This document shows positions 45,663 through 63,211 of a DNA stretch of 64,000 bases, piece by piece; the stretch's first letter is position 1; each line of letters begins with the position of its first letter. Both the position numbers and the translations under genes were made by a program. Below the pieces are notes generated by a model. The model made no database searches, was not told the DNA's origin, and saw nothing but the letters and a program-made list of their open reading frames with translations. The stretch is from contig NZ_JAUOEM010000002.1 in NCBI RefSeq assembly GCF_030540875.1, forward strand, positions 216,926 through 280,925. Reading direction: 5' to 3'. This stretch comes from Flavivirga amylovorans. GTDB lineage: Bacteria; Bacteroidota; Bacteroidia; Flavobacteriales; Flavobacteriaceae.

Positions 45663-47243
45663 ATGTTTAAAACTATTAAGAATGACTTACCAGCGAGTAT
45701 AGTCGTATTTTTTGTTGCACTACCATTATGTTTAGGTATTGCATTAGCAAGTGGAGCTCCCCTTTTTTCAGGATTGATAGCAGGAATTATAGGAGGGGTA
45801 GTTGTAGGCGCTTTAAGTGGCTCAAAAATTGGAGTTAGTGGACCGGCTGCGGGTTTAGCAGCAATTGTTTTAACAGCTATAGGAACCTTAGGAGGGTATC
45901 AAAACTTTTTAGTAGCTGTTGTGTTAGGAGGCGCTATTCAACTGTTATTCGGCGTTTTAAAAGCAGGGATTATTGGATACTATTTTCCGTCTTCAGTAAT
46001 TAAGGGCATGTTAACAGGTATTGGTATTATCATTATTTTAAAGCAAATACCTCATTTTTTTGGCTATGATGCCAATCCCGAAGGTGATTTATTTTTCTTT
46101 GAAGTAGACAGTAAAGGAACTTTTTCAGAACTAATAGGTACTATAAACCATATAAAGCTAGGCTCTGCTTTAATTGGCATAATAGGATTAGCCATTTTAA
46201 TACTTTGGGATAAAGTACTATCTAAAAAAGGTAAAATATTTCAATTGATACAAGGACCACTTGTAGCTGTTGTGGTTGGAATTATTTTTTATGTTATTAC
46301 ATTATCAAATGAAGTTTTAGCAATAACACCATCACATTTAGTTAGTGTCCCAGTTCCTGAAGATGCTTCGTCATTTTTTGGTCAATTCAGTTTTCCTAAT
46401 TTTAGCGTTATTACTAAACCAGAAGTATGGATTGTTGCATTTACAATTGCCTTGGTAGCAAGTTTAGAAACCTTGCTGTGTGTAGAAGCAACTGATAAGT
46501 TAGATCCTAACAAAAATGTAACACCTACTAATAGAGAATTGTTAGCTCAAGGTACAGGTAATATTCTTTCTGGGCTAGTTGGAGGGTTACCGATAACACA
46601 AGTAATAGTTAGGAGTTCAGCAAATATTCAATCAGGTGGCGTATCAAAAATGTCAGCAATTATTCATGGGTTTTTCTTAATAATCTCAGTTATTTTAATT
46701 CCTAAGCTGTTAAACATGATTCCGTTATCTGTATTAGCCGCTGTACTATTAGTAGTTGGATATAAGTTAGCAAAGCCTTCTTTGTTTAAAAAAATGTTTG
46801 ATTTAGGATGGAAACAATTTATACCGTTTACTGTAACAGTTTTGGGAATTGTCTTTATCGACCTTTTATATGGAATAGGACTTGGATTAGGAGTTGGTAT
46901 TATCGTTATCCTTATTAAAAGTTATCAAAACTCACATTTTCTACATATTGAAGATAAGAGTAATGGAAAGCATAAAATAAAAATGACATTTGCCGAAGAG
47001 GTTACGTTTTTTAATAAAGGAGCTATTCTTAAAGAATTAGATAGTTTACCAAGAGACACCTATTTAGAGTTAGATGTTAGGAAAACAAGATATTTAGATA
47101 ATGATATTATTGAGATTTTAGAAGATTTTGCATTTAAAGCAAATGAAAGAAACATTGATATTAAATTGATTTCAGAGCGTGGTATGGTTGAAAACCCGTC
47201 AAGCTTTATTGAGTTTTTTAAATTGAGACCCAAAGCAACTTAA
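45663..47243 (+). CDS. SulP family inorganic anion (probably bicarbonate) transporter
   Basis: 526 residues, about 12 membrane helices. SulP signature: LPLCLGIALASGAPLFSGLIAGIIGGVV near the start and GPAAGLAAIVLTAIG. A C-terminal STAS-like domain is present (residues ~430-520: TYLELDVRKTRYLDNDIIEILEDF). Clustering with a universal stress protein and a beta-carbonic anhydrase supports bicarbonate as substrate (BicA-like); sulfate cannot be excluded by sequence alone. Confidence 0.88.
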   Translation: MFKTIKNDLPASIVVFFVALPLCLGIALASGAPLFSGLIAGIIGGVVVGALSGSKIGVSGPAAGLAAIVLTAIGTLGGYQNFLVAVVLGGAIQLLFGVLKAGIIGYYFPSSVIKGMLTGIGIIIILKQIPHFFGYDANPEGDLFFFEVDSKGTFSELIGTINHIKLGSALIGIIGLAILILWDKVLSKKGKIFQLIQGPLVAVVVGIIFYVITLSNEVLAITPSHLVSVPVPEDASSFFGQFSFPNFSVITKPEVWIVAFTIALVASLETLLCVEATDKLDPNKNVTPTNRELLAQGTGNILSGLVGGLPITQVIVRSSANIQSGGVSKMSAIIHGFFLIISVILIPKLLNMIPLSVLAAVLLVVGYKLAKPSLFKKMFDLGWKQFIPFTVTVLGIVFIDLLYGIGLGLGVGIIVILIKSYQNSHFLHIEDKSNGKHKIKMTFAEEVTFFNKGAILKELDSLPRDTYLELDVRKTRYLDNDIIEILEDFAFKANERNIDIKLISERGMVENPSSFIEFFKLRPKAT

Positions 47244-47254
47244 ACCTAAAAATC

Positions 47255-48064
47255 ATGAAAAAAAAATATAAAATATTAGTCCTTTCAGATTTAAAAAAAT
47301 CGACAAATGCTACATTAAAAAGCACAGTCAGTTTAGCTAAAATGATAAATGGAGACATAGAATTTTTCCATGTTAAAAAGCCCAGCGACATTGTAGAAAA
47401 AGAAAGTCAATTATCAGCTATGCGTACTATAAATAAGGAGCATTTTGCAATTGAAAAGGAAATACAAACTTTAATAACATCTATTTCTAAAGATTACGGA
47501 GTAAACATAAATTATTCATTTACCTATGGAAATGTAAAGGATGAAATGCGTAAATACATCAAACTTAATAAACCCGACATCATTGTTTTAGGTAAAAGAA
47601 AACCTAAACCACTTAATTTTATAAGTTATGGCATTACAAATTTTATTCTTAAAGAACATAATGGTGTAATCATGTTGGCAGATAATGATAATATATTAGA
47701 ACCAAATAATGACATATCGCTTGGTGTACTAAACGGAGTTGAAGAATCATTTAATCTAGAATTTATTGAGGACTTGATGAATCATAGTCAAAAGCCCTTA
47801 AAATCTTTTAAAATTGTTAAAGGCGATTCAAATACAAACTCAAAAGCAGATACAGATATTAGCAAAAAAATGGTTGAATATGTATTTGAAACGAGTGACA
47901 ATATTATTGATAACCTTTCTAATTATGTATCAAAAAATAATATTAACTTATTATGCGTAAATAGAGAAAAGAAAAATACCGTAAAAAACGAAAACACATC
48001 AGCATCTGATATTAAAACTTTTATGGGGAAGCTTAATGTTTCATTTCTAGTTACAAGAGGATAA
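47255..48064 (+). CDS. Universal stress protein, two-domain
   Basis: 269 residues, two UspA-like halves. The first has ILVLSDLKKSTNATLKSTVSLAKMINGDIEFFHV and PDIIVLGKRKPKP; the second is degenerate (LLCVNREKKNTVKN) and lacks a clear ATP loop. It lies between the SulP and carbonic anhydrase genes (11 and 53 bp) and is likely a regulatory partner. Confidence 0.8.
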   Translation: MKKKYKILVLSDLKKSTNATLKSTVSLAKMINGDIEFFHVKKPSDIVEKESQLSAMRTINKEHFAIEKEIQTLITSISKDYGVNINYSFTYGNVKDEMRKYIKLNKPDIIVLGKRKPKPLNFISYGITNFILKEHNGVIMLADNDNILEPNNDISLGVLNGVEESFNLEFIEDLMNHSQKPLKSFKIVKGDSNTNSKADTDISKKMVEYVFETSDNIIDNLSNYVSKNNINLLCVNREKKNTVKNENTSASDIKTFMGKLNVSFLVTRG

Positions 48065-48117
48065 AGACTATTAGCACAATAATAATTTTATGAAAAATGA
48101 ATTTTAATTAAAAAATT

Positions 48118-48747
48118 ATGAAAGCACATACAAAAGAAACACAAGCAGCAATGACACCTCAAAAGTCATTGGAATATTTAAAAGCGGGAAACCAAAGGTT
48201 TCAGGATAATTTAAAAGTGGATAGAGATTTATTGGATCAGGTTAAAGATACGAGCAATGGGCAATATCCATTTGCGACTGTTTTAAGTTGTATAGACTCT
48301 AGAGTATCTTCAGAATTAATTTTTGATCAAGGTATAGGTGATATCTTTAGTGCTAGAGTCGCAGGGAATTTTGTAAATGAAGATATTTTAGGAAGCATGG
48401 AATTTGCTTGTAAATTAGCAGGTACCAAGCTCGTAGTTGTATTAGGGCATACCAGTTGCGGCGCTGTAAAAGGTGCTTGTGATAATGCTAAAATGGGCAA
48501 TTTAACCAAACTTATCGAAAAAATTACACCAGCAGTCAATGCCGTTTCAGAACCTAAGGATGCAAGTTTACGAAATTCAAAAAACATAGAATTTGTAGAC
48601 AATGTTTCTAAGAAAAATGTCGAGTTAACTATTGAAAGAATTATGAAAGAAAGCGATGTATTAGCAGATATGCAAAATAATGGCGAGATTATGATAGTTG
48701 GAGCTATGTACGATATTCATTCAGGTGCCGTGACATTCTATGAGTAA
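48118..48747 (+). CDS. Beta-carbonic anhydrase
   Basis: 209 residues, no signal peptide. Zinc ligands and catalytic pair are visible: Cys58-x-Asp60-x-Arg62 (SCIDSR), His111 and Cys114 (HTSCGAVKGA). It interconverts CO2 and bicarbonate in the cytoplasm. Directly after SulP and USP, it makes a functional unit for inorganic carbon supply, probably to carboxylases. Confidence 0.95.
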   Translation: MKAHTKETQAAMTPQKSLEYLKAGNQRFQDNLKVDRDLLDQVKDTSNGQYPFATVLSCIDSRVSSELIFDQGIGDIFSARVAGNFVNEDILGSMEFACKLAGTKLVVVLGHTSCGAVKGACDNAKMGNLTKLIEKITPAVNAVSEPKDASLRNSKNIEFVDNVSKKNVELTIERIMKESDVLADMQNNGEIMIVGAMYDIHSGAVTFYE

Positions 48748-48763
48748 ACAGCTTAGCTTATAG

Positions 48764-49447
48764 ATGGGAAAGAATACTATGAAAATAAAAACAAGTCTGG
48801 TAGCATTAGTTATGGCATTAATGTCTCCCTTATTTATGCAAAGTCAAGACAGTGATTTTGGAAATTGGCTAATATATATAGGTAATAAAAAACTTAATAA
48901 GAAGTGGAACATCCATAACGAGATTCAATACAGAAACTATGATGCTATCGGAGACCTTGAACAATTGCTTTTAAGAACAGGTTTGGGGTATACCTTTAAT
49001 GAAAGTAAGAATAACGTATTATTAGGTTATGGCTATATCCTTTCGGAGAATTACGTAGGAAATACAGATGATAAAGTCTCTGTTAATGAACACAGAGTTT
49101 TTCAGCAGTTTACATCAAAACAAAACATAGGTCGCGTAAAATTAAATCACCGGTATAGATTTGAACAACGTTTTGTTGAAGATGATTTTAAATTACGTTT
49201 TCGCTATTTTTTAGCGTTAAATATTCCTTTTTGTAATAAGGAGGATCAAAATAGTAACTATTATTTTTCTGCATACAATGAAATATTTTTAAATACAGAA
49301 ACAGCAATTTTCGATAGAAATAGGCTATATGCAGGTATTGGTTATAATATCAATAAGAATATAAGACTCGAAGCTGGCTACATGAATCAATTTTTCGAAA
49401 CCAGTAGCAGAGATCAATTGAATATTATCACTTTCGTTACATTTTAA
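48764..49447 (+). CDS. DUF2490 outer-membrane beta-barrel-like protein
   Basis: 227 residues. The signal peptide is best read from the in-frame ATG at 48779 (MKIKTSLVALVMALMS...FMQSQ); starting at 48764 adds five residues. DUF2490 block: DFGNWLIYIGNKKLNKKWNIHNEIQYR, then amphipathic strands (LRTGLGYTF, NVLLGYGYI, YRFEQRF, LFYAGIGYNI-like) ending in FVTF, typical of an outer-membrane barrel. Co-oriented with the carbonic anhydrase gene, followed by a terminator. Role unknown. Confidence 0.82.
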   Translation: MGKNTMKIKTSLVALVMALMSPLFMQSQDSDFGNWLIYIGNKKLNKKWNIHNEIQYRNYDAIGDLEQLLLRTGLGYTFNESKNNVLLGYGYILSENYVGNTDDKVSVNEHRVFQQFTSKQNIGRVKLNHRYRFEQRFVEDDFKLRFRYFLALNIPFCNKEDQNSNYYFSAYNEIFLNTETAIFDRNRLYAGIGYNINKNIRLEAGYMNQFFETSSRDQLNIITFVTF

Positions 49448-49460
49448 GTTAACTTTAATT

Positions 49461-49497
49461 AAAAAAACCAATACTTTTGAGAGTTGGTTTTTTTTTT
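49461..49497 (+). terminator. Terminator after the DUF2490 gene
   Basis: AAAAAAACCAA / TTGGTTTTTTT stem with a 12-nt loop followed by further Ts. Confidence 0.75.
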
Positions 49498-49543
49498 GAA
49501 CCAAGATGAATTAACTTGGAACTTCTAAATAGTTACTTAAAAT

Positions 49544-51406
49544 ATGAAAAATCTTTTTTCAAATATAAAAGGAGATGCTTTTGGTGGTATTACTGCTGGT
49601 ATAGTTGCATTACCCTTAGCGCTTGCTTTTGGAGTGTCTTCTGGGTTAGGACCTACAGCAGGATTATATGGGGCTATTTTTATTAGTTTTTTTGCTGCTC
49701 TTTTTGGAGGAACTAATACACAGATTTCTGGGCCAACAGCACCAATGACGGCAGTTAGTATGCTTGTTATAGCAGGTATCATTGCAACAAACGATGGCGA
49801 TGTTAATAAGGCACTACCAGTAATTCTTACTGTATTTTTGTTAACAGGATTAATGCAAGTTGGATTAGGTATTTTAGGTTTAGGAAAGTATATAAGGTAC
49901 ATTCCTTACCCTGTAGTTTCAGGTTTTATGACGGCCATAGGCGTTATTATATTACTAACTCAAATTTTACCTTCTATAGGGTATTACCCAAAGGAAGATA
50001 TGGAGTTTGTAAACACATTTAAGGCACAAGCAGAAAATGTTATTCTTAGGAATATTATCGAAGAAGAAAAAAGCGAAGGTATTTTAGTACTAGAAAATTT
50101 TAAAGAAACAATATCCAGATCTGAAGCTATTTCGCAAGAGGATATTTTACGAGAGTCCCAAACATTAGCTAAAAATGAAAGTAAAAAAGCTTTCGGAATA
50201 TTAAAAATTCTACCAAGAGCATTACAAAATATTAATTGGTTAGAATTAATGCTAGCTTTAGGAACCATTTTTATTATTTATGGCTTTAAACGTATTACTA
50301 AAGCTGTACCAAGTACATTAGTCGCTTTAATAGTGATGTCTGGAATTGCATTTGGTTTTGGATTAAACTACAGACCCATTGAAGAAATTCCGAGCGGATT
50401 ACCGATTCCAAATTTAGAAATTTTTACAAATTTTAAATTAAGTAGTATAACCCCTTATGTTTTTACTGCATTAACATTGGCTTTATTGGGAGCGATAGAT
50501 TCATTGTTAACGAGTGTTGTTGCCGATAATATGACAAAAACGAAACACAAACCAAACAAGGAATTAGTAGGCCAAGGTATAGGTAATAGTATTGCCGCAA
50601 TTTTTGGAGGTATCCCTGGAGCAGGAGCAACCATTAGAACCGTAGTAAATATTACCTCTGGTGGTAAAACAAAATTATCAGGGATGATTGCTGGTGTTTT
50701 ATTGTTAATAATATTGCTAGCCTTAGGGCCTGTAGCATCAAAAATTCCTGCGGCAGTCCTGGCCGGTATCTTAATAACAGTTGGTATTGGCGTTATGGAT
50801 TACAAAGGCTTAAAAGCCATTCCAAGTTTACCAAGAGATATAAAACTAGGGCCACTAAAACTAAGTTCAGAAGTATTGATAATGCTTGTTGTTTTGTTAC
50901 TTTCTACTTTTTGGGACCTAATTTATGCTGTTGGTATCGGACTTGTAATAGCGTCTTTAATGTTTATGAAGAAAATAGGGGATTTAACAGCAGAACGTTC
51001 AGATGTAAAACCACTAAAAGAAGAAGCTTGGGCAGATGAAGCTGGGTTTCCTGAAAATTTAAAAGAAGAAGTCTTTATAAAACACTTAAAAGGCCCTTTG
51101 TTTTTTGGATCAACAAGCGATTTTCAGCAATTAACAGCACAAATTCCCGATACAGCTAAAACAGTTATTATAAGATTAGGACGTATGCAGTATATGGACC
51201 AATCCGGGCTATATGCTATGGAAGATATGTTACAAGAATTAAGTAAAAAAGGAATTGCAGTCTTATTTGTTGGGTTGTTAAGACAGCCGAAATATATGAT
51301 GGAACGAATTGATATCATTCCTGATTTAATTCCTAGAGAGCATATATTTGATAGTTTTAAGGAATGTATTGGTTGGATTAAAGAGAATGTGCATGAAAAT
51401 GATTAG
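49544..51406 (+). CDS. SulP family anion transporter with STAS domain
   Basis: 620 residues. GITAGIVALPLALAFGVSSGLGP and QISGPTAPMTAV are SulP hallmarks. An unusual ~80-residue charged insert lies near residues 150-230 between helices. The C-terminal STAS domain has FFGSTSDFQQL and RLGRMQYMDQSGLYAMEDML. It differs from the first SulP (45663) and is the second of the cluster. Substrate is bicarbonate or sulfate by context; not determined. Confidence 0.9.
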   Translation: MKNLFSNIKGDAFGGITAGIVALPLALAFGVSSGLGPTAGLYGAIFISFFAALFGGTNTQISGPTAPMTAVSMLVIAGIIATNDGDVNKALPVILTVFLLTGLMQVGLGILGLGKYIRYIPYPVVSGFMTAIGVIILLTQILPSIGYYPKEDMEFVNTFKAQAENVILRNIIEEEKSEGILVLENFKETISRSEAISQEDILRESQTLAKNESKKAFGILKILPRALQNINWLELMLALGTIFIIYGFKRITKAVPSTLVALIVMSGIAFGFGLNYRPIEEIPSGLPIPNLEIFTNFKLSSITPYVFTALTLALLGAIDSLLTSVVADNMTKTKHKPNKELVGQGIGNSIAAIFGGIPGAGATIRTVVNITSGGKTKLSGMIAGVLLLIILLALGPVASKIPAAVLAGILITVGIGVMDYKGLKAIPSLPRDIKLGPLKLSSEVLIMLVVLLLSTFWDLIYAVGIGLVIASLMFMKKIGDLTAERSDVKPLKEEAWADEAGFPENLKEEVFIKHLKGPLFFGSTSDFQQLTAQIPDTAKTVIIRLGRMQYMDQSGLYAMEDMLQELSKKGIAVLFVGLLRQPKYMMERIDIIPDLIPREHIFDSFKECIGWIKENVHEND

Positions 51407-51583: not shown

Positions 51584-52672
51584 TTATTGCAGCAAACTAT
51601 AAACAAACTCAGGGTATCCACGTACTCCATCTTCATTTGTTAAAGCTAAAAATTGTAGCTTGTAAAGGTTTCCGTCAGTATCATTTACAACATAAAAAAC
51701 AGTTGTTTTTAAAGAAGGTAAGCTTCCTGGTCCCCCACCATTTCTCCAACTACTTCCAATACTACGTTGGTCTGAAGTAAAATTACTTTCAACAATATCT
51801 GCTAATGTAAAATCAGCATAAGTTAATGTGTTATCAATCTCAGTATCTATCATGTATACTTTTGCATCAGCTTTAGCATTGTTAACTACAAAATCGGAAT
51901 AACCATAAGAACCAAACCCTTCAATTTCGTTTGTAAAAACGGTAAAGTTTAAATCCCAATTTTCCTTTTCTGGTTCTACATTAATTTTATCTTTAGTATC
52001 GAAGCTGAAAAAAGTATAATTATAATCAGAATTTTTAGATATAGTTATTTCTTGGTGCGTTGTAGCATCCAAATCTGCATATTGTAGAACATAATCACTG
52101 CCATTTTTTAGAACTCGAATTTTTTTCCATCCTCTTGAAATACCTGAAATAGCTACACTTCCTGTAGATGGGGTTTCTGTTCCTACCTTATAACCTAAAT
52201 TCAATAAGTAAACGTTGTTATTAGCATCTGTATTAGAAATTTCGTCAATAGCTGTATTGGTAATTGTACCATCTGGAGCATCTACATAAGCTTTGTTTGC
52301 ATCATCAAAAGTACCAACAGCTACTTGAGGCTGTAAATCTTGTACTTCTGTAGAAGTTGAATTTATGGCATCTATATCTGTTGCAGATAGTTTAGCAGTA
52401 GCCATATAGATAGATCCGTTAATTATAACTCTAAAGTTTGTCCCTGAGTAAAACCCCAGATCCCACGAATCTCGTTGTACAGTTGAAGAGGTATTACTAC
52501 TTAAATCAATATAGACTTGATTTTGTTGGTTAGGGCCTCCAACACTTGGAGATACTGATGCACCTTCAATTATAACTTTGATAGGCTCGGTTGGTCCATC
52601 GTCATTAGTACTACAACTAGTAAAAGCTAGAACAGTAGTACATAGAATAAGGGTTAAAAATTTGTTTAACAT
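51584..52672 (-). CDS. HmuY family heme-binding-type lipoprotein
   Basis: 362 residues. The lipobox cysteine is in LAFTSCSTN (Cys20). HmuY-type fold cues: VYIDLSSNTSSTVQRDSWDLGFYSG, a central region with W and repeated beta strands, and ENWDLNFTVFTNEI. Family members hold heme at the cell surface and pass it to a TonB receptor. The gene follows the TonB receptor by 11 bp on the same strand, matching hmuR-hmuY order in reverse gene naming. Heme ligands cannot be assigned. Confidence 0.85.
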   Translation of the reverse strand: MLNKFLTLILCTTVLAFTSCSTNDDGPTEPIKVIIEGASVSPSVGGPNQQNQVYIDLSSNTSSTVQRDSWDLGFYSGTNFRVIINGSIYMATAKLSATDIDAINSTSTEVQDLQPQVAVGTFDDANKAYVDAPDGTITNTAIDEISNTDANNNVYLLNLGYKVGTETPSTGSVAISGISRGWKKIRVLKNGSDYVLQYADLDATTHQEITISKNSDYNYTFFSFDTKDKINVEPEKENWDLNFTVFTNEIEGFGSYGYSDFVVNNAKADAKVYMIDTEIDNTLTYADFTLADIVESNFTSDQRSIGSSWRNGGGPGSLPSLKTTVFYVVNDTDGNLYKLQFLALTNEDGVRGYPEFVYSLLQ

Positions 52673-52683
52673 AATTAGTGATT

Positions 52684-54816
52684 TTAAAATTTAAGATTAT
52701 ATAATAGTTTTAAGTAATATGAACGGCCATAGCCCAATAAAAGCCCACTATTATTTAAAGAATGAATAGCCCCATTTCCAGAGCTACTAACATTTACATT
52801 AGTAACATCTAGTAGGTTTCTAGCTCCAACTGTGGCTTGAATTGCGTTATCGAAAAAAGATTTTTTTATAGAAGTATCTAACCAGTTATAGGCATCAGTA
52901 GTCGTTTTAGAAAACAAAGAATTTCCATTAGCATCCGTTCCTACAGCACTATAGTTTTGTTGTTTTCCGTTGTGTTTTAAAAGAACTGTTACTGCTGTTT
53001 GCCATTTTTTAATTTGATACGTGCCACTGGTATTAATTTGTACAGCATAAAGAAAGTCATCTTCAGAGTTTAATTCATCATTAGCTATTTGAGAAATACC
53101 TTGTAGTGTAGCCCCTAAATTAAACGTCCAATTATCAGTTTTCAAACTGTTTTCTGAAGTAATTCCCCATAATTTGTAAGCGTCAATGTTTATGTATTGA
53201 AACTGTAAAGGTGTATTGTTAACAATAGCTAGATCAATTTTATCCTGTAAATCGATATAGCTGATCTTTAGGGTATTTATAAGTGAAGTATTTTTAAACC
53301 AATTGCGTTTTTTAAAGTTTACAAAAGCAGTGAAACCATTTTCTGGATTCAGATTTTCATTACCTCTTACATCATGATTACTATCTACGAAATAATAGTA
53401 AAGTTCTTCAAAATTTGGTGTTCGGTAGGAGGTACCAATGTTTCCTCGTAGCTCAAAACCATGTTTCATCAAATAGCGTGCGCTTATTGAACCTAAAAAT
53501 TTTGATTGAAATTGTGAATTATATTCATAACGCAAGCCGGGGCGTAATAGAATTTTATCAGAAAGATTGATTTCTGAAGAACCAAATAAGGCATAATTAT
53601 TTTGAGACTGTTCTTTGTCTTGTTGTGTAATAGCTCCCGAAGCTTGTGTGTCAAATCCTTTTATTAGGCGAGTTTCATAGCCCAGCTGAAAGTTATAAAA
53701 GTTATTTTTAACCAGATTATTGATGTTTCCTTTTGAAAAAAACACCTTGCTAGACTGATACACTTCGTCAGTCTCATTGCTCCTCTCTTCAGTAACGATG
53801 AAGTAATTAAATTCGTTTAAATGACGCTTTTGTTGCTGATAAGAAACAGAAGCATTGTAATTCACTCCAGAATTTAACTTACCGTTTACGCTCAAATTAT
53901 TAACGAATCTATTGGTTGTAAAAATTCTATCAGTTGCAGATGGGTTACTTGTTTGTGATTGTGTATCTATATTAGCTCTAACTGCTGCATCGTGATAATT
54001 TATAATTTCATTGAAGTAATCAAACTTATAAAATAGTTTAAAGTTCTCTTTACTATAGTTTAGTAATGCGTTAGTGTTTATTTGTGTTTTAGGCAACCAA
54101 TCGTAGCCCCTTAAACCATCATTTTGATAATGGTTTTTTCCTTGTCTATCATTATAAAACCCAGCAAATTGATTTCTGTTAACACCAGCCCTAGCAAACC
54201 AATTTTTTTTGAAATTATGACCAATGTTTAGGGCTTGTATATGTCTACCTTTGTTAAACCAAGCATACTCATCACTTACCGTTTCTTCTTGTATAACTGT
54301 TTGAATTTTCCATTCACTACTAATTGTCTTTTTGGTTATAATATTAATAACGCCAGAAACAGCATTGGCTCCATATTCAACCCCCATAGCACCTTCAACG
54401 ATCTCGATACGTTCTACATCATCAAGATTTATTTGTGTTAAATCTATATTGTTTCCAAGTCCGCTATCGCTTACTAGCGGAATATTATCGACCAGAATAT
54501 TGAAGTATTGAGCGTCTAAACCAAAAAAAGAAATAGTTGATTTTCCAGTTTGCGCATTCGGAATGATAGTTAAGTTTAAATTGAAATTTAATAGGTCCGC
54601 TAAATTATTAGCTGCCTGATTTTCAATTTGCTCTCTTTTTATTACAATAACGTTATGAACCGATTTCTTTATAGATTGCGGATTATATTGTCCAGTAACA
54701 ACAACCTCTTCTAAACTATTAACTTTTACTGAATCTTGTTTTACTTCTTGAGAAAATATCAGGCAAGAAAAAAAAATTGAAAAATAAATGCCGAAATAGT
54801 TTTTATTTAGAATCAT
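52684..54816 (-). CDS. TonB-dependent receptor (heme/iron type), partner of HmuY
   Basis: 710 residues. Signal peptide to about residue 22, TonB-box-like SLEEVVVTGQYNP, plug domain (NNLADLLNFNLNLTIIPN, VERIEIVEGAMGVEYGANAVSGVINIIT) and a 22-strand-type barrel ending in a terminal phenylalanine (LLYNLKF). There is no carboxypeptidase-like N-terminal domain, unlike SusC types. Transcription starts at a TATATTTG box overlapped from upstream by a dyad, so repression by an iron regulator is likely. Confidence 0.93.
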   Translation of the reverse strand: MILNKNYFGIYFSIFFSCLIFSQEVKQDSVKVNSLEEVVVTGQYNPQSIKKSVHNVIVIKREQIENQAANNLADLLNFNLNLTIIPNAQTGKSTISFFGLDAQYFNILVDNIPLVSDSGLGNNIDLTQINLDDVERIEIVEGAMGVEYGANAVSGVINIITKKTISSEWKIQTVIQEETVSDEYAWFNKGRHIQALNIGHNFKKNWFARAGVNRNQFAGFYNDRQGKNHYQNDGLRGYDWLPKTQINTNALLNYSKENFKLFYKFDYFNEIINYHDAAVRANIDTQSQTSNPSATDRIFTTNRFVNNLSVNGKLNSGVNYNASVSYQQQKRHLNEFNYFIVTEERSNETDEVYQSSKVFFSKGNINNLVKNNFYNFQLGYETRLIKGFDTQASGAITQQDKEQSQNNYALFGSSEINLSDKILLRPGLRYEYNSQFQSKFLGSISARYLMKHGFELRGNIGTSYRTPNFEELYYYFVDSNHDVRGNENLNPENGFTAFVNFKKRNWFKNTSLINTLKISYIDLQDKIDLAIVNNTPLQFQYINIDAYKLWGITSENSLKTDNWTFNLGATLQGISQIANDELNSEDDFLYAVQINTSGTYQIKKWQTAVTVLLKHNGKQQNYSAVGTDANGNSLFSKTTTDAYNWLDTSIKKSFFDNAIQATVGARNLLDVTNVNVSSSGNGAIHSLNNSGLLLGYGRSYYLKLLYNLKF

Positions 54817-54834
54817 TCTTAATTAAATTTGCTG

Positions 54835-54844: not shown

Positions 54845-54871
54845 TCTTATTTTAATTCAGTCTAAATAAGA
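54845..54871. promoter_or_regulatory. Dyad operator candidate between the two iron operons
   Basis: TCTTATTT - 11 bases - AAATAAGA, perfect 8-bp arms, in the 104-bp divergent region. It sits between the -7 and -33 positions of the leftward promoter and upstream of the rightward one, the place for a shared repressor such as a Fur- or DtxR-type iron regulator. Regulator identity is inferred. Confidence 0.55.
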
Positions 54872-54920: not shown

Positions 54921-55826
54921 ATGAGACAATTATCGATTTTTTCACTATTAATTCTAGCTTTTTCAATGCATGGAAATGCTCAAAGCAAGAAAAAACAAGA
55001 TGCAGAAGCCATTAAAAAAATGTGTGGATGCTATGAAGTGACTTTCAATTTTGCAGAAACCTTTAACTATAGTGAAGACTCACTTTACAAGCCATCTAAA
55101 ACAAAGAGGGATAAAGGTCTGGAGTGGGCACAATTGGTTGAAGATGATAAAAACAAAATAGCTATTCAGCATATTCTTCAAGTGGGAGATTCTTCTAAAC
55201 CACATATTGTAAAACATTGGAGACAAGATTGGCTTTATGAGAATACTGATTTTTATATGTTTAATGGGGATAACACTTGGAAATATGTTTCTAAGCCAAA
55301 ATCTGAAGTTAAAGAGCAATGGACTCAAAAAGTATATCAGGTTGACGACAGTCCAAGATATGAAGGTACAGCAACTTGGGTGCATGTAGATGGTAAGAGT
55401 TATTGGGAAAACATAACGGATGCACCATTACCAAGACGTGAATATACTAAACGAAGTGATTACAATGTAACCGTTAGAGGCAACCGCCATGAGATTACTA
55501 AAAATGGCTGGGTACACGACCAGGATAATGCTAAAGTAATTCGTGAAGATGGAAAATCAGATGTGATTTTGGCAAAAGAAAAAGGTTATAATACGTATGT
55601 GCAAGTTGATGACAGTAGGTGTAAGGCTGCTGCAACTTGGTGGAAGGAAAATCAAGGAAAATGGGCTTTAGTACGTGCCAAATGGTCTGATGTTTATAAT
55701 AGAAATCAAAACTTAGCATTAGAACCAAAAGTTGAAAATAAACAGCTTTATAAATATTTGTTTTCTGATGATTACAATAAAGCTGATGACATAAATAAAG
55801 TGATAGAATCTTTTGTAAAAAAATAA
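54921..55826 (+). CDS. DUF6607 family secreted protein
   Basis: 301 residues with signal peptide (FSMHGNAQS). The motif CGCYEVTFNFAETFNY lies just after it, with blocks rich in Trp (KHWRQDWLYEN, NTWKYVSKP, TATWVHVDGKSYWEN, AATWWKENQGKWALVRAKW). These fit DUF6607, a family seen near TonB receptors for iron. Function unknown; perhaps a periplasmic substrate or degradation protein. First gene of the 7-gene iron operon, followed after 30 bp by the receptor. Confidence 0.82.
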   Translation: MRQLSIFSLLILAFSMHGNAQSKKKQDAEAIKKMCGCYEVTFNFAETFNYSEDSLYKPSKTKRDKGLEWAQLVEDDKNKIAIQHILQVGDSSKPHIVKHWRQDWLYENTDFYMFNGDNTWKYVSKPKSEVKEQWTQKVYQVDDSPRYEGTATWVHVDGKSYWENITDAPLPRREYTKRSDYNVTVRGNRHEITKNGWVHDQDNAKVIREDGKSDVILAKEKGYNTYVQVDDSRCKAAATWWKENQGKWALVRAKWSDVYNRNQNLALEPKVENKQLYKYLFSDDYNKADDINKVIESFVKK

Positions 55827-55856
55827 CCAAAAAATTAGAGAACCAAGAAATTAAAG

Positions 55857-58283
55857 ATGAAAAAAATACTATCAATATTACTACTTAGTTGTGGTATTAT
55901 ACACTTTGCTTACAGTCAGGCAACACTTAAAGGAATTGTGAAAAGTAATACGAATGAAGCTATTCCATATGCAAGTATATCTATCAACGGTGCTAAACTA
56001 GGAACCAATGCATCAACCGATGGTACTTTTACGATTAATAATGTGCCTTTTTCCACGTATAAAATTATTATAAGTGCTGTAGGTTATAAAAAAACCATAC
56101 AAGAAATTAATGTAAATGGTGATCTTTTGGATATCATATTCATACTAGAAGAAGGTGATGAATTAGACGAAATTGAACTTTTTGGTTCAAGAAATAAAAG
56201 GGCAGAAAAACTTGAAACACTTACAAGGTTACCTCTTGCTCCCAATGAACAATTGCAAAGTATTTCTATTCTATCGAACAAGCTTATTGAACAACAAAAT
56301 GCTTTAACACTTAGTGATGTTACCAAAAATGTTGCCGGTGTTTACACCTTTGCTACTTACGGAAATATTAGAGAAAGCATGTCTTTAAGAGGGTATAGAG
56401 GCATTCCATTACTTAAAAATGGTGTTAGAATTAATTCTGATTTTAGAGGCATAGGCGTTATTACAGATATGGCAGGTGTCGATAATATCCAGGTACTAAA
56501 AGGAGTATCAGCTATTAGTCAAGGTTTGGGAGGTGATTTAGGTTCCGCGGGAGGTGTTATTAATATCGTTACAAAAACACCTAAATTTTACGATGGTGGT
56601 GAAATAAGTTTAAGAGCCGGTAGTTTTGGTATGGTACGACCTGTATTTGATTTTTATGGGCCTTTAGATAAAAAGAAAACAGTGGCTTTTAGAGTGGCAG
56701 GTTCTTACGATAGAGCAGATAGTTATAGAGTAAAAGTAAATTCAGAACGTTTTTACATCAACCCTTCAATTGCCTGGAAACCTAACGATAAAACCAAGAT
56801 CTTTTTTGAAATGGATTATATGGATGATAGTAGAACTCCAGATCAAGGCACTATTAATTTAGGCGATTATGCGACCAATAATATTTTGAAATTACCAGAC
56901 AATAAATTTTTAGGCTTTGAATCGGATAGAGCGAATAGTGTCAATACAACCTATGCGGTAAGATTCGAAAGAGAAATTAATGATCATCTAAAAATTAAAG
57001 GTGGGTACTTTGCTTCAGATTTAGAAACCTATAGCGAAACATCTTATGCATTTGAAGGTGGTGGAAGAACTGGTTTGCCAGAACTTGCAAGTACGCAACG
57101 ATATAGAGAATACTATGCAGATGGAAGAAAAGATAAAAATAGTGTACTGCAAATAGATTTAGTAGGCAAAGATGTAAAAACAGGAGCTTTAAAACACACA
57201 TTTCAAGTTGGGATAGATTATAGAAATACAAATTTCGATAACACGGCATATATAACCACATATCCAAATACTGATGCCTATATAGATATTATTGATGTTA
57301 ATCAGCCTATAAATAATATATTGCCAGAAGGTGTTTCTGTTGCTCCAAATCCTGCCAGGGCATCAGGGTCTCAAACAAAATCTTATGGGTTTACAATTCA
57401 AGATAAAGTTTCAATAACCTCATGGGCAGATGTGTTTTTAGGTATTCGCTATACCTCTTTAGAGCGCACCAAAGGAAACTTTATTGGAAGAAGCTTAACA
57501 GGAGCAAAAAGAGATGACGCGTTTAATCCTTTAATGGGATTCAATATAAAACCTATAGAAAATATTATAGTCTTCGGATCGTATGCCAGCAGTTCAAATC
57601 CTATGACCTCATTTTATAGAGATATTGATGGTAATGAATTAGGAACAGAACGTTGGGATCAATTTGAAACAGGTATAAAATCGACATGGTTTGATAAAGC
57701 CTTGCGTTTTAATGTTACTTATTTCTCTACTTATAGCAAGAATTTAAATTTAGAAGCTATTGACGCAGCTGGAACCTTTTTAGGGTATTATTTAAAGGGA
57801 GGAGAAGATACCAGAAGTGGTGTTGAGGTTGAATTAATAGGTCGCATATTGCCAAATTTAGAGATCATAGGAGGCTATTCTTATTTAGATGCCAAGTATA
57901 AAGACCATATATCGTATTACTTTAACTCCAGTCCTATTAACACACCAAAGCATACAGCAAATTTATGGCTACACTATGGATTTAAGAACGTTCTAGATGG
58001 ACTGTCTTTAGGTGCAGGAGCTTATTATTTAGGAGAGCGGCCACATAATGTATGGTCTAGAAACTATACCCATACGGGAGTCGTTCCAGGTGTTAAACCA
58101 TTCGATTTAAAAGCATATACAACGGTAAACGTGCAAGCGTCCTATAAGTTTAATAATGCTTTGAGTTTAGATGTTTTTGGGAATAATATTTTCAATGAAT
58201 TAGGATTTAACGCCTATAGAACAGTATACATTAATAGAATACAGCCAGCTAGTTTTGGAAGCACCCTACGCTATAAATTTTAA
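55857..58283 (+). CDS. TonB-dependent siderophore-type receptor with carboxypeptidase-regulatory-like domain
   Basis: 808 residues. Signal peptide (1-20), a CarboxypepD_reg-like domain (about 22-96, ATLKGIVKSNTNEAIPYAS), TonB-box region (DELDEIELFGSRN), plug (QNALTLSDVTKNVAGVY, SMSLRGYRG, VDNIQVLKGVSAI, GGVINIVTKTP) and a barrel ending STLRYKF. The plug pattern 'GV....... R...RG' and FNELGFNAYRTVY near the end are typical of ferric-siderophore receptors. The exact ligand is unknown. Confidence 0.93.
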   Translation: MKKILSILLLSCGIIHFAYSQATLKGIVKSNTNEAIPYASISINGAKLGTNASTDGTFTINNVPFSTYKIIISAVGYKKTIQEINVNGDLLDIIFILEEGDELDEIELFGSRNKRAEKLETLTRLPLAPNEQLQSISILSNKLIEQQNALTLSDVTKNVAGVYTFATYGNIRESMSLRGYRGIPLLKNGVRINSDFRGIGVITDMAGVDNIQVLKGVSAISQGLGGDLGSAGGVINIVTKTPKFYDGGEISLRAGSFGMVRPVFDFYGPLDKKKTVAFRVAGSYDRADSYRVKVNSERFYINPSIAWKPNDKTKIFFEMDYMDDSRTPDQGTINLGDYATNNILKLPDNKFLGFESDRANSVNTTYAVRFEREINDHLKIKGGYFASDLETYSETSYAFEGGGRTGLPELASTQRYREYYADGRKDKNSVLQIDLVGKDVKTGALKHTFQVGIDYRNTNFDNTAYITTYPNTDAYIDIIDVNQPINNILPEGVSVAPNPARASGSQTKSYGFTIQDKVSITSWADVFLGIRYTSLERTKGNFIGRSLTGAKRDDAFNPLMGFNIKPIENIIVFGSYASSSNPMTSFYRDIDGNELGTERWDQFETGIKSTWFDKALRFNVTYFSTYSKNLNLEAIDAAGTFLGYYLKGGEDTRSGVEVELIGRILPNLEIIGGYSYLDAKYKDHISYYFNSSPINTPKHTANLWLHYGFKNVLDGLSLGAGAYYLGERPHNVWSRNYTHTGVVPGVKPFDLKAYTTVNVQASYKFNNALSLDVFGNNIFNELGFNAYRTVYINRIQPASFGSTLRYKF

Positions 58284-58292
58284 TTTGAGACA

Positions 58293-59786
58293 ATGAATAA
58301 ATTAAAAACAGTACTGCTAATGGTTTTGCTTGTAAATGTTTTACAGGCCCAAACAAAAAACATTTTTTTAAGTAGAGAATTCTGGAAAACATCCCCAAAA
58401 ATAGAGATTGTAGAGCAAAAAATTAAAGAAGGCCATAATATTTCAGAACTCAATCAATATGGGTTTGATGCTGTAGTATATGCCATATTAGAAAAAGTAC
58501 CTAACACCCTAATTAAGTATTTGCTTTCAAAAAAAGGGAACTCGGTTAATAAGCTTACTCATGATAAGAGAACTTATGTTTTTTGGGCAGCCTATGCGAA
58601 TAATGTTGAGTTAATGGCTTATCTCATAGATAGAAATGCGAGAATGGATTTAAAGGATGCTCATCATTTTTCAGTATTAACATTTGCCGCAGCTACAGGT
58701 CAAACAAATAAACAAATTTATGATCTATGTATAAAAAACGGCATCGATATTAAAAATGATAAAGATGAACATGGTGCCAATGCATTATTATTGATTGCTC
58801 CCTTTCTTAAGGATATAACACTAATAGAATATTTTACATCCAAGGGCATAGATATTCATAGTACTGACGATATTGGTAATGGTATTTTTAATTATGCAGC
58901 AAAAAATGGCAATATAGAAATAATGAAACGCTTAATTAAGTTAGGTGTTTCATACAATACACTAAATAATGAAGGCGGCAATGCTATCATTTTTGCGAGC
59001 CAAGGTACCAGACAACACATTAATTCTATAGAAACTTTTAAATATTTAGAGTCTTTGGGAATTAATTCAAATGTTACAACTACTAAAGGTGTAACGCCTT
59101 TACATGCTTTGGCATATAGAAGTAAGGATATCTCGACATTTAATTATTTTATAGATAAAGGCGTAGATGTTAATCAAGCTACAAGTGATGGTAATACTCC
59201 TTTTTTAAATGCAGCAAATAATAATACAATTACTATTGTTTCTCATTTATTCAAGCAGGTAAAAAACATCAATTTTACAAATAAAGATGGTAAATCTGCG
59301 CTCACAAATGCAGTATATAAGAATAGTATTGACGTTGTTGAGTTTCTTTTAAAGCAAGGAGCAGATACTTCTATTAAAGACAAAAACGGGAACAATCTTA
59401 CATACTATCTTTTTAAAAGTTTCGATTTAAAAAACATAGATACATTCAATAAAAAGTTAGCCTTGCTTATCAAGCACAATTTGGATTTAAAGGAGACTCA
59501 AGGAAATGGAGATACGCTATTTCATTTAGCATTAGAAACAGGTAATTTGGATTTATTAAAACGTGTAAATACTATGGGAATAAATATAAATACTAAAAAT
59601 AATGATGGGATTTCCCCTTTGCAAGAAGCAGTTATGAAAGCCAAAGACGATACTGTATTAAAGTATTTATTGTCCGTTGGCGCAGATAAAACTGTTAAAA
59701 CCGATTTTGATGAAACAATTTATGATTTAGCAAAAGAAAACGAATTGCTCAAAACTCATAATATCGATATTAATTTTTTAAAATAA
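58293..59786 (+). CDS. Secreted ankyrin-repeat protein
   Basis: 497 residues. Signal peptide (1-20, VNVLQAQ), then about 10-12 ankyrin repeats from residue ~45 to 490 (YVFWAAYANNVELMAYLIDRNARMD, GVTPLHALAYRSKD, GKSALTNAVYKNSIDVVEFLLKQGADTS, GISPLQEAVMKAKDD). Ankyrin repeats bind proteins. An exported version in an iron operon suggests a periplasmic scaffold or regulator for the receptor or reductase. Gaps of 9 and 6 bp to the neighbours. Confidence 0.9.
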   Translation: MNKLKTVLLMVLLVNVLQAQTKNIFLSREFWKTSPKIEIVEQKIKEGHNISELNQYGFDAVVYAILEKVPNTLIKYLLSKKGNSVNKLTHDKRTYVFWAAYANNVELMAYLIDRNARMDLKDAHHFSVLTFAAATGQTNKQIYDLCIKNGIDIKNDKDEHGANALLLIAPFLKDITLIEYFTSKGIDIHSTDDIGNGIFNYAAKNGNIEIMKRLIKLGVSYNTLNNEGGNAIIFASQGTRQHINSIETFKYLESLGINSNVTTTKGVTPLHALAYRSKDISTFNYFIDKGVDVNQATSDGNTPFLNAANNNTITIVSHLFKQVKNINFTNKDGKSALTNAVYKNSIDVVEFLLKQGADTSIKDKNGNNLTYYLFKSFDLKNIDTFNKKLALLIKHNLDLKETQGNGDTLFHLALETGNLDLLKRVNTMGININTKNNDGISPLQEAVMKAKDDTVLKYLLSVGADKTVKTDFDETIYDLAKENELLKTHNIDINFLK

Positions 59787-59792
59787 TAACAG

Positions 59793-60281
59793 ATGAAGCG
59801 TATTAAAACAATTAAAATAATATCACTTCTTATGCTTTTTATGCTATTAGGGTTTAAAAATAAAGCAGAAACCACAACATATAAGTGCATGATCCAAATG
59901 ACGAATTATTCTGGAGAAGGGGCTTATGTTATTATTTCATTATTAAATCCAGAAGGCAAATATGAAAAAACATTATACGTGCAGGGAGATGATGATGAAT
60001 GGTATTCTGAAATAACAGCCTGGTGGAAATTTCAAGGAAAAAGACGGACAGATATTGATGCCATAACAGGAGCAACAATAAGTGGTGGCGGGCGTATGAT
60101 AAGTGTTATCGAGATTGAAAATAGCAAAATAGATACGGGTTATAAAATACGTTTTGAAACCGCTGTGGAAAATCAGGAATATTATAAAGATGATGTAGAA
60201 TTTGAGCTTACATCCGAAACCATAAAAAATAAAATAGAAGGAACAGGCTTCATACGTTACGTTCGTATGATGGCACAATAA
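59793..60281 (+). CDS. DUF2271 protein, candidate flavinylated periplasmic electron carrier
   Basis: 162 residues. N-terminal signal or anchor (8-21). The domain matches DUF2271 (MTNYSGEGAYVIISLLNP.GKYEKTLYVQGDDDEWY). It contains D89-A-I-T-G-A-T95 (DIDAITGATISGG). D-x-x-[TS]-G-A-[TS] is the acceptor motif that ApbE-type enzymes use to attach FMN through phosphothreonine in NqrC/RnfG and FMN-binding domains, so Thr95 is the predicted site. Located immediately before the PepSY-flavin reductase (11 bp), it could take electrons from it. I infer flavinylation; it is not shown. Confidence 0.85.
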   Translation: MKRIKTIKIISLLMLFMLLGFKNKAETTTYKCMIQMTNYSGEGAYVIISLLNPEGKYEKTLYVQGDDDEWYSEITAWWKFQGKRRTDIDAITGATISGGGRMISVIEIENSKIDTGYKIRFETAVENQEYYKDDVEFELTSETIKNKIEGTGFIRYVRMMAQ

Positions 60282-60292
60282 AAAGATCCCAA

Positions 60293-62485
60293 ATGACCAT
60301 TTCTATATGGAGATATAGCCACCTTACTTTGGCTATATCTTCTTCTATATTCATATTATTAGCAGCCTTAACAGGTATAGTTTTAGCGTTTGAACCTATT
60401 TCAAATCAGCTAAAACCTTATGCTGTAAAGCATGCTGATGCCCTTTCGCTTTCTAAAACCGTAGAAAACCTACAAGCTGAATATGATGAGGTAATACATG
60501 TAGAAAAGGATAAAAACAATTTTGTAATAGCTTCTGTTATTACAAAAGACGGCAAAAATGAAACCTTTTATATAAATCCATTTACTGCTAAAAAAATAGG
60601 CGATATTATTGAAAAAGCACCATTTTTTAAATTTGTTACCAATTTACATAGGTCATTGTTTTTAAAGTCTACAGGAAGGGTTCTTGTAGGTTTTATATCC
60701 TTTTTACTCTTTTTAATGGCCGTTACTGGTGTGTTTCTAATTATTAAGCGACAAGGCGGTGTAAAACGTTTCTTTTCAAAAATGATTAAAGAAAATTTTA
60801 ATCAGTATTACCATATCATTATTGGAAGGTATGTTTTAATACCTATTGTAATAGTTACGCTTTCGGGCGTTTATTTATCGTTGGAAAAGTTTTCGTTATT
60901 GCCATCAGAAAAAAAACCACATGACATAAATGAAGAACTTTTAGTAGGAACACCTAAAATAAAAGTTCAGGATTTCAGTCTTTTTAAAACCCTTACTTTA
61001 AATGATATTCAGCGTGTTGAATTTCCTTTTTCTGATGCTATTGAGGACTATTTTGTTTTAAAGCTTAATGATAAAGAATGGCTTGTAAATCAATATAACG
61101 GAGCCATAATAAGTGAAAAAAAACAAAATTTGGTAGCTTTAGTTTCAAGTTGGAGTATGCTATTACATACAGGCCAGGGTTCTATAATGTGGTCTGTTAT
61201 TTTGCTGTTAACTTGTATTGCTATCTTGTTTTTTATGTTTTCGGGGTTTGCTATGACACTAAACCGCAGAAAAAATAGTATCAAAATTAAAAACAAATTT
61301 AGCAAAGACGCTGCTGAGTATATTATTTTAGTTGGTTCGGAAACAGGAAGCACTTATGGTTTTGCAAAAGCTTTGTATAAAGCTTTAATTGCAGAAGGTA
61401 AATCGGTATTTGTTTCAGAATTAAATGCGTATTCCAGCTATAAAAAAGCAGAACATTTGGTGGTATTTACATCTACTTATGGGGATGGAGAGCCTCCCAC
61501 AAATGCAAAGAATTTTGAAAAATTGGTTGGTCATGTTTATCAGAACAAGATCCTTAAGTACTCCGTTGTTGGTTTTGGTTCTTTAGCTTATAAAGGCTTT
61601 TGTAAGTATGCTATTGTGGTAGATTCTTTATTGCAACTACACCAGAAGTTTATTCCGAATTTATCCCTTCATAAAATTAATAACCAATCTTTTGACGCTT
61701 TTAAGGACTGGGCATCTTCGTGGAGTAAAAACAAAGGCTTAAATCTAAAAATTGAAAAACCTGTAAACACACCTCAGCCTAAAAATTCAAAATTATTTAA
61801 AGTGGTTAGCAGATCTATGGTTAATTCCGATAACTCTTTTTTGCTTGAATTAGAGCTTGCCCAGAAGTTAAAATTTAACTCTGGAGATTTGTTTAAAGTA
61901 TATCCAAAGAACGAACAAAGAGAACGTTTATACTCTATTGGTAAAATAAATGAAAATATAGTATTAAGCATTAAAAAACATGAGTTCGGAGTATGCTCAG
62001 GTTATTTTAGTAAACTTAAAAAAAACGATATGGTACTAGCAGATATAAAACAAAATAAAGATTTTAATTTTCCTGTAAATGTGAAAGAAGTCGTTATGAT
62101 TTCTAATGGGACGGGGATTGCACCATTCTTGGGGATGATTAATAATCAGGATTCTAATTCTGTAAAATCACATTTGTTTTGGGGTGGACGGACGAAAGAT
62201 TCTTATCAAATCTATTCAGAATTAATAGATAAAGCTTTTTATAGCAAAAAACTATCTGGACTTTACATTAGTTTTTCAAAAGAGGAAAGTCAAAAAAGAT
62301 ATGTGCAAAATTCAATAGTAGAAAAAAGTGATTTAATATCTCGGGTATTAAAAAGTGATGGTGTTATTATGATTTGTGGATCAATAGCTATGCAAAACGA
62401 TGTTCTGGAAACATTAGAAAGTATCTCTGAATCTAAATTGAATAGGCCTTTAAATCTAAATCAAATTAAAACAGATTGTTATTAA
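60293..62485 (+). CDS. PepSY-TM / flavodoxin / NAD(P)H reductase fusion (ferric-substrate reductase)
   Basis: 730 residues. Membrane helices are near 11-33, 128-150, 173-195 and 297-319, with His10, His119, His174 and His292 at helix ends, good candidates for two b-heme ligand pairs. The periplasmic PepSY-type segments lie at ~40-118 and ~200-290. A flavodoxin domain starts at ~343 (LVGSETGSTYGFAKAL; STYGDGEPPTNA). A ferredoxin-reductase-like FAD/NAD(P) module occupies the last ~230 residues (RLYSIGKI, VMISNGTGIAPFLGMI, MICGSIAMQNDV). It moves electrons from NAD(P)H across the inner membrane. Its context with a siderophore receptor and DUF2271 supports ferric-siderophore or heme reduction. 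Confidence 0.9.
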   Translation: MTISIWRYSHLTLAISSSIFILLAALTGIVLAFEPISNQLKPYAVKHADALSLSKTVENLQAEYDEVIHVEKDKNNFVIASVITKDGKNETFYINPFTAKKIGDIIEKAPFFKFVTNLHRSLFLKSTGRVLVGFISFLLFLMAVTGVFLIIKRQGGVKRFFSKMIKENFNQYYHIIIGRYVLIPIVIVTLSGVYLSLEKFSLLPSEKKPHDINEELLVGTPKIKVQDFSLFKTLTLNDIQRVEFPFSDAIEDYFVLKLNDKEWLVNQYNGAIISEKKQNLVALVSSWSMLLHTGQGSIMWSVILLLTCIAILFFMFSGFAMTLNRRKNSIKIKNKFSKDAAEYIILVGSETGSTYGFAKALYKALIAEGKSVFVSELNAYSSYKKAEHLVVFTSTYGDGEPPTNAKNFEKLVGHVYQNKILKYSVVGFGSLAYKGFCKYAIVVDSLLQLHQKFIPNLSLHKINNQSFDAFKDWASSWSKNKGLNLKIEKPVNTPQPKNSKLFKVVSRSMVNSDNSFLLELELAQKLKFNSGDLFKVYPKNEQRERLYSIGKINENIVLSIKKHEFGVCSGYFSKLKKNDMVLADIKQNKDFNFPVNVKEVVMISNGTGIAPFLGMINNQDSNSVKSHLFWGGRTKDSYQIYSELIDKAFYSKKLSGLYISFSKEESQKRYVQNSIVEKSDLISRVLKSDGVIMICGSIAMQNDVLETLESISESKLNRPLNLNQIKTDCY

Positions 62486-62496
62486 TATAAAAATGT

Positions 62497-62850
62497 ATGT
62501 GCAATAGTATAAGGACAATAGCAAAAGTAACTAGTGGAGAACTTTCAATATGTGAGCAATGTAATGTCTATCATGTTGAGTTTAATAATATTTATTTTGA
62601 ATTTACTCCAAATGAGTTTGATCATTTTAAAGACTATCTTTTAAACATCGAGTTGGATTATTGGGAAGAAAGATATTCTTGCGCAAAGGTTAAAAGAAAA
62701 ATCCCCATTCCGTCAATGCAAAAAAACCTGGTTTTAATGTTCAATAGACAAGAAATAAAAGAATTGAAATTACTTTTTTGTGGAGAAGAATGTGGTTTTG
62801 AAAATGTATTATATGCTAACGATATAGATTATAAATTGATTTTAAACTAA
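62497..62850 (+). CDS. DUF6686-like Cys-rich small protein, copy 1
   Basis: 117 residues, no signal peptide. Cysteines at 2, 19, 22 (CEQC), 62, 95 and 99 (CGEEC) could bind a metal. Blocks NVYHVEFNNIYFEFTPNEFDHF and KRKIPIPSMQKNLVLMFNRQEI match my recollection of DUF6686. Function unknown. In the iron operon, 11 bp after the reductase. It may sense or store iron, by inference only. Confidence 0.7.
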   Translation: MCNSIRTIAKVTSGELSICEQCNVYHVEFNNIYFEFTPNEFDHFKDYLLNIELDYWEERYSCAKVKRKIPIPSMQKNLVLMFNRQEIKELKLLFCGEECGFENVLYANDIDYKLILN

Positions 62851-62857
62851 TTAAAGC

Positions 62858-63211
62858 ATGGACGATATAAACACGATTTACTATAATGATTTTGGAATCG
62901 CTTTCCACTGGAAAAGATGTGCTGTTAAAGATTTTAAGAAGATTCAATTAGTCTTTAGAGACACAGGGTTATTACTAACGTCCCATGAATTGCTATTATT
63001 CTCTGAAAACATAGATAGATCTTTAAACAGAAACTGTTCATGTATAGATTGTATAGAATATAAAACTTGCAAATTGTTGGTTGAAGCTCCAAATCCGCAA
63101 ATGACTTTCGCCATGACTTACACAGAAATAAAAGACATACAAGATTTAGTAAAAGGAACTTTATTTCAAATGGGATTAAATAAGATACTTAGCGATAATA
63201 CAATTAAATAG
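62858..63211 (+). CDS. DUF6686-like Cys-rich small protein, copy 2
   Basis: 117 residues, same length and plan as the preceding gene (FRDTGLLLTSHELLLFSENI aligns with the FTPNEFDHFKDYL region; TYTEIKDIQDLVKG with NRQEIKELKLL). It has a different cysteine set: 21, 60, 62, 65 (CSCIDC) and 71. A diverged tandem duplicate. It ends one base before the convergent cvpA stop. Confidence 0.65.
   Translation: MDDINTIYYNDFGIAFHWKRCAVKDFKKIQLVFRDTGLLLTSHELLLFSENIDRSLNRNCSCIDCIEYKTCKLLVEAPNPQMTFAMTYTEIKDIQDLVKGTLFQMGLNKILSDNTIK

Follow-up and report, generated by a model that had tools for sequence, protein, structure and literature searches.

A probable iron-controlled heme-uptake locus with a predicted flavin electron chain in Flavivirga amylovorans

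How iron is released from heme in flavobacteria is a question for which a locus of Flavivirga amylovorans, in which a haemophore shares an operon with a predicted flavinylated carrier, offers a direct and testable candidate. The locus lies within a stretch of 64,000 nucleotides (contig NZ_JAUOEM010000002.1 of RefSeq assembly GCF_030540875.1, positions 216,926 to 280,925 of the forward strand), here called the window, to which all coordinates refer unless preceded by the label of another contig or locus. An original prediction, made from the letters of the window alone, had placed a seven-gene iron-uptake operon at 54921-63211. All seven open reading frames are present as placed, on the + strand and with intergenic gaps of 6-30 bp, and Pfam and NCBIfam bear out the domains that had been named, including DUF6607, a TonB receptor of the siderophore class, ankyrin repeats, DUF2271 and a fusion of PepSY_TM, flavodoxin and NAD(P)-binding domains. 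We observed that the locus reaches further, to a divergent HmuR/HmuY pair on the - strand (51584-54816) and a common palindromic operator. The data suggest iron-controlled heme-uptake genes and a predicted flavin electron chain in one operon, and we consider it probable that this is a Fur-controlled locus for the uptake of heme and ferric chelates, with a periplasmic reductase driven by NADPH (reduced nicotinamide adenine dinucleotide phosphate).

The first gene of the operon (54921..55826, +; Pfam DUF6607, E 1.7e-101) had been described as having no known role, a view that has to be given up, as fold, sequence and ligand conservation all place its product in the RhuH haemophore family. The AlphaFold2 model of the protein (predicted local distance difference test, pLDDT, 92.7) fits RhuH of Riemerella anatipestifer (PDB 8xjc) over 275 residues at 2.0 A, with a Z of 36.6 and a Foldseek E of 6e-34, and phmmer aligns the two sequences with E 1e-91 at about 49% identity. 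By alignment to RhuH, H99 is the predicted heme ligand, corresponding to His96, and R146, Y147, R173, R186 and Q201 are the predicted propionate contacts; each of these residues was found in 44/44 DUF6607 sequences from several families of the phylum. The Flavivirga protein is predicted to bind heme. The crystallised Riemerella RhuH is a tight heme binder with His96 as ligand and strips heme from hemoglobin; heme binding and extraction from hemoglobin have been shown in Riemerella and three other species, rhuH is required for Riemerella growth on hemoglobin and hemin, and rhuH and rhuR-rhuA have a common Fur-box promoter there (PMC11967795).

On the opposite strand, 104 bp from the DUF6607 start, begins the gene of a TonB-dependent receptor of HmuR/RhuR type (52684..54816, -), which displays a beta-barrel and plug and matches the TonB-hemin family TIGR01785 below its cut-off. 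Directly beside it, in the position of Riemerella RhuA, lies an HmuY-family heme-binding lipoprotein (51584..52672, -; Pfam HmuY E 6.6e-29, lipobox-like N-terminus), and this adjacency of an HmuY-domain protein and a TonB receptor is the one by which HmuY/HmuR heme uptake is recognised. Across the 80 named loci, which are the neighbourhoods retrieved with DUF6607, HmuR adjoins DUF6607 in 72 and HmuY in 71, DUF2271 is near it in 64, and the ankyrin gene, DUF2271 and the PepSY fusion are found together in 60. The RhuH-RhuR-RhuA system of Riemerella (PMC11967795; 8xjc) is alike in the haemophore fold, the heme ligand, the divergent receptor with its HmuY-type protein and the Fur-type promoter; however, no redox block is described there, whereas in Flavivirga such a block stands behind the haemophore gene within the same operon.

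The carrier of this block is a secreted DUF2271 protein (59793..60281, +; Pfam E 1.5e-39), a predicted substrate of ApbE. The motif D89-A-I-T-G-A-T95, which had been read as an acceptor site for flavin mononucleotide (FMN), is present, and among 113 DUF2271 homologues the final Thr is not lost (112 T and 1 S), while D89 is kept in 112/113 and G93 in 113/113. This conservation points to the Thr95 codon (60075..60077, +) as the predicted site of covalent FMN attachment. As a separate observation, Ala94 (60072-60074) is replaced by Glu in 21/113 homologues, which departs from the published [S/T]GA[S/T] motif. A sequence search at E 0.1 found no solved structure related to DUF2271.

Two apbE copies were found in the genome, neither adjoining the operon. 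The idea that both serve the operon was dropped: the copy on C10 lies about 8 kb from the only FMN_bind (NqrC-like) protein of the genome, and the copy on C8 resembles, with 53% identity, an ApbE that another genus encodes immediately downstream of the block. Since only one ApbE is present in many relatives, this division of labour is not strict. In the family sample, ApbE was present in 48/48 genomes having DUF2271 over the cut-off; in one genus it directly follows the block, and in another ApbE and DUF2271 form a single protein. In a natural ApbE-DUF2271 fusion of 507 residues (L077:7912-9435; PF10029 E 2.5e-35), the DUF2271 part appears to be without the usual GAT acceptor motif. In the C8 neighbourhood (L082:3411-8888), apbE is accompanied by genes for an extracytoplasmic function (ECF) sigma factor, a FecR protein, a TonB receptor and a thioredoxin-like protein, and the same trio of sigma factor, FecR protein and receptor adjoins the PepSY block in L040.

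The next gene (60293..62485, +) encodes a fusion of a PepSY_TM domain with four transmembrane-like segments (Pfam E 3.6e-35), a flavodoxin domain (Flavodoxin_1) and a reductase part (NAD_binding_1) for flavin adenine dinucleotide (FAD) and NADPH, the C-terminal part resembling cytochrome P450 reductase, CysJ and the reductase domains of nitric oxide synthase. Four histidines had been noticed at the ends of membrane helices; H10, H119, H174 and H292 each indeed stand at the end of one of four hydrophobic segments and are conserved in 103/103 homologues, and the sequence predicts two of them on each side of the membrane. The only PDB match to a profile of the membrane part was FoxB (7abw, E 1.5e-4), with whose histidines H10 and H119 align. 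The electron route that had been proposed, from NAD(P)H through FAD, FMN and two b-hemes to a covalent FMN, along which electrons would flow, is supported by this conservation, by the presence of ApbE and by a published PepSY/DUF2271 class (PMC8238504), which also matches the link between PepSY and DUF2271 that had been noted for extracytosolic flavinylation. In a more distant lineage of the phylum, the neighbours of RhuH/HmuY are a flavodoxin and a PepSY_TM protein, neither of them fused, together with DUF6686, and this unfused layout favours reading the fused protein as a single path for electrons. The genome has another PepSY_TM gene (C6:36794-37831, L235), unfused and without linkage to DUF2271.

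With reference to its control, the promoter between HmuR and DUF6607 carries a palindrome, TTATTTAGAATCATTCTTAATTA, at 54803..54825, overlapping the HmuR start codon, and a weaker copy, TTATTTTAATTCAGTCTAAATAA, at 54847..54869, with 4 mismatches to the 23-mer consensus. Across the genome the consensus retrieves 8 palindromic sites and a reversed control 0, and 62/62 divergent HmuR/DUF6607 promoters of named genomes contain a site that deviates from it by no more than 4 mismatches, compared with 0.2% of shuffled promoters. The published Riemerella Fur box, a 19-mer, did not rise above shuffles in these promoters, in which another, longer palindrome stood out; by analogy with Riemerella, we regard the palindrome as a putative Fur operator, with Fur as its presumable binder. 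The neighbours of the 8 genomic sites include hemA, FeoB and an imelysin/DUF4856 cluster, while three sites have no clear iron link. Two copies of the palindrome (C1:885632-885727, L142) lie ahead of a cluster of DUF4856, imelysin, membrane protein and TonB receptor genes, which suggests that this uncharacterised cluster belongs to the same iron regulon. Others are found near hemA with a divergent AraC gene (C11:147959, L139) and near FeoB (C8:56105, L143), and the regulator of the palindrome may also govern heme synthesis and ferrous uptake.

Comparison of gene neighbourhoods confirmed a strong link of the block to iron, and showed that its commonest partner in this family is heme uptake (RhuH with HmuR/HmuY), not the siderophore receptor that the original prediction had put forward. 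None of the outcomes that the prediction had named against itself (no ApbE in the genome, loss of the final Thr in homologues, no association with iron genes in other species) occurred. Among 48 DUF2271 loci, the ankyrin gene and PepSY both stand beside DUF2271 in 42, and DUF6607 and HmuR are present in 28 (about 58%). DUF6607 and DUF2271 co-occur in 36/149 genomes (odds ratio 12.9, Fisher p 4e-11, phylogeny uncontrolled), and a comparison of coordinates found them linked in 30 of these 36. In 7/20 RhuH loci lacking a linked DUF2271, RhuH is directly followed by a secreted FMN_bind protein whose motif is DxIxGATxS-like. Some RhuH loci (L120, L129, L149) hold, immediately after the FMN_bind carrier, a protein of 164 residues with about four hydrophobic segments, conserved His and no Pfam match, which by its sequence is a candidate novel membrane electron-transfer protein. 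Taken together, the neighbourhoods suggest a modular block, found with heme uptake and with siderophore uptake of catecholate type and of hydroxamate type; one block plugged into several uptake types would explain the difficulty of naming its cargo.

Among the remaining genes of the operon, those for the ankyrin protein and DUF6686 gain a functional setting from it, as does DUF6607. The siderophore receptor (55857..58283, +) lies between the haemophore and ankyrin genes, is FhuA/FoxA-like and scores 234.8 bits with TIGR01783 against a cut-off of 223.5. A receptor of this kind at the same place, after the haemophore, was seen only in a few genera, the relatives being labelled Aquimarina, Maribacter and Tenacibaculum, and it is a lineage-limited insertion in the operon. 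The secreted ankyrin-repeat protein (58293..59786, +; Pfam ankyrin families) is a near-constant member of the block, its gene adjoining DUF2271 in 43/48 loci, and is probably a scaffold that joins the carrier and the cargo-binding proteins. The two Cys-rich proteins at the end of the operon are both present as described, but they are not unrelated extras: the sixth (62497..62850, +; small, with CxxC and no signal peptide seen) matches Pfam DUF6686 with E 4e-45, and the seventh (62858..63211, +), which has no Pfam match, is a divergent paralogue that aligns with it along its full length and reaches E 3.3e-16 with a DUF6686 profile built from relatives. The predicted DUF6686 fold (pLDDT 84) gave weak matches only, to PUR-alpha repeats (Z up to 6.9), DUF155 and cupin-like entries. 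No papers were found under the names DUF6607 and DUF6686.

Several parts of this arrangement are already published, namely PepSY/DUF2271/ApbE systems, NAD-binding fusions, the link to TonB receptors, and RhuH. The PepSY/DUF2271 class of PMC8238504, in which more than 1000 members have an NAD-binding domain and 231 clusters include a TonB receptor, is alike in PepSY_TM, in DUF2271 with [S/T]GA[S/T] and in a genomic ApbE; Flavivirga differs in having a secreted ankyrin protein for the usual DUF4198, a linkage to RhuH and HmuR/HmuY, and a DUF6686 pair. DUF4198, which is present in about half of the published clusters and is not obligatory for the wider class, had no Pfam match among the seven proteins, and the main text of PMC8238504 makes no mention of the ankyrin protein or DUF6607. 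The siderophore reductases FoxB and HiuB (7abw; PMC13001220) share a PepSY core in the membrane whose heme sites are bis-histidine, whereas the Flavivirga PepSY domain is fused to flavodoxin and ferredoxin-NADP reductase (FNR) domains and paired with a predicted flavinylated carrier. Caulobacter CCNA_03155-03159 and the Alteromonas clusters (PMC12004947, PMC7190382), for which iron regulation and fitness effects are published, likewise hold iron-regulated PepSY and DUF2271, but with DUF4198 instead of ankyrin and no RhuH haemophore described. A figure legend on Porphyromonas hmuY regions (PMC12106395) has a pepSY gene drawn near hmuY, and that legend reports no flavinylated carrier, RhuH or fusion. 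Riemerella B739_0173-0177 (TonB receptor, hypothetical, ankyrin, periplasmic protein and 'nitric oxide synthase'), which by gene order and name only looks like a Riemerella counterpart of the block in its siderophore layout, is induced when iron is limiting, and the promoter of B739_0173 is bound by Fur (PMC5429918, PMC7976709). A Bizionia paper on MliR was set aside as a parallel, as it yielded only a PepSY gene of unclear identity. Our literature search found no paper in which a flavinylated carrier is connected with uptake by RhuH or HmuY, or in which the ankyrin protein is named as part of such a system.

From gene content, site conservation, haemophore identity, operator and linkage, all of which were tested, we infer a mechanism that takes in flavinylation, electron flow, heme as cargo, the scaffold and Fur. 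RhuH and HmuY would capture heme outside the cell and deliver it to the TonB receptor HmuR, and the inserted siderophore-type receptor would import a ferric hydroxamate-like chelate. The PepSY fusion would oxidise cytosolic NAD(P)H and pass the electrons by way of FAD to the FMN of its flavodoxin domain; they would then cross the inner membrane over two bis-histidine b-hemes, held by H10/H174 near the cytosol and H119/H292 near the periplasm, and reach the FMN covalently bound to Thr95 of DUF2271. The reduced carrier would in turn reduce the imported ferric cargo, heme probably being among the reduced compounds, and iron or ferrous heme would be freed for uptake, with FeoB as a possible importer of the iron. 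This reading gains support because the pairing of RhuH with flavin or PepSY partners recurs in other forms, with an FMN_bind carrier or with unfused flavodoxin, DUF6686 and PepSY_TM. Several points weigh against it. An MxcH-like (myxochelin-type) siderophore receptor, without heme genes, accompanies 9/48 DUF2271 loci (about 20%), and the Riemerella block seems to be located away from the RhuH locus; given both, heme cannot be the sole substrate of the block and is perhaps not a direct one. RhuH has been reported in secreted vesicles and not in the periplasm, and linkage does not prove joint function. In favour of the reading, no match to PF01126 (heme oxygenase), PF05171 (HemS) or PF02514 (CobN/HmuS) was found in the 99.99% complete genome, HugZ and IsdG lying outside this search, but this does not prove a reductive route.

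Other explanations have to be weighed beside this one. The block may serve ferric siderophores only and owe its place beside the heme genes to a common promoter through which iron starvation induces them all. The MxcH-like loci agree with this, as do the insertion of siderophore receptors into heme-type operons at two distinct sites (in some, an MxcH-like receptor between DUF2271 and PepSY) and the action of the PepSY proteins FoxB and HiuB on siderophores (PMC13001220); however, just 6/80 heme-type loci hold a siderophore receptor in the operon and the pairing of RhuH with redox genes recurs with different redox parts, so that we regard a siderophore-only role as rather doubtful. A narrower form of the proposed mechanism, in which ferric heme is reduced for hand-over or transport as ferrous heme and iron is removed later in the cytosol, is a tentative possibility: some HmuY-family proteins prefer ferrous heme and need reducing conditions to take heme from albumin (PMC6200708), and the linkage to HmuY/HmuR is tight, but the preference is known from other HmuY proteins and not from this HmuY or RhuH, and the genome lacks the three searched families of heme degradation and handling. 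That in marine flavobacteria of this kind the flavinylated reductase frees iron from heme in the periplasm for a ferrous importer, in replacement of a heme oxygenase, is unlikely.

Passive synteny, by which the genes are inherited together without joint function, draws on a wider gene order that is common on both sides in part of the family, but the order RhuH-ankyrin-DUF2271-PepSY survives where the outer flanks differ and the linkage in 30/36 genomes argues in the same direction, making this explanation very unlikely. Action on another metal or in redox repair, for example on copper as for the Bordetella PepSY_TM protein CrpH, would be in line with the reported tie of PepSY_TM proteins to copper enzymes (PMC13038864); linkage, operator and published expression data all indicate iron, however, and this we consider extremely improbable.

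Beyond the HmuY gene, two SulP-type transporters and a carbonic anhydrase-like gene (45663-51406) adjoin the locus and occupy the same position in several relatives.

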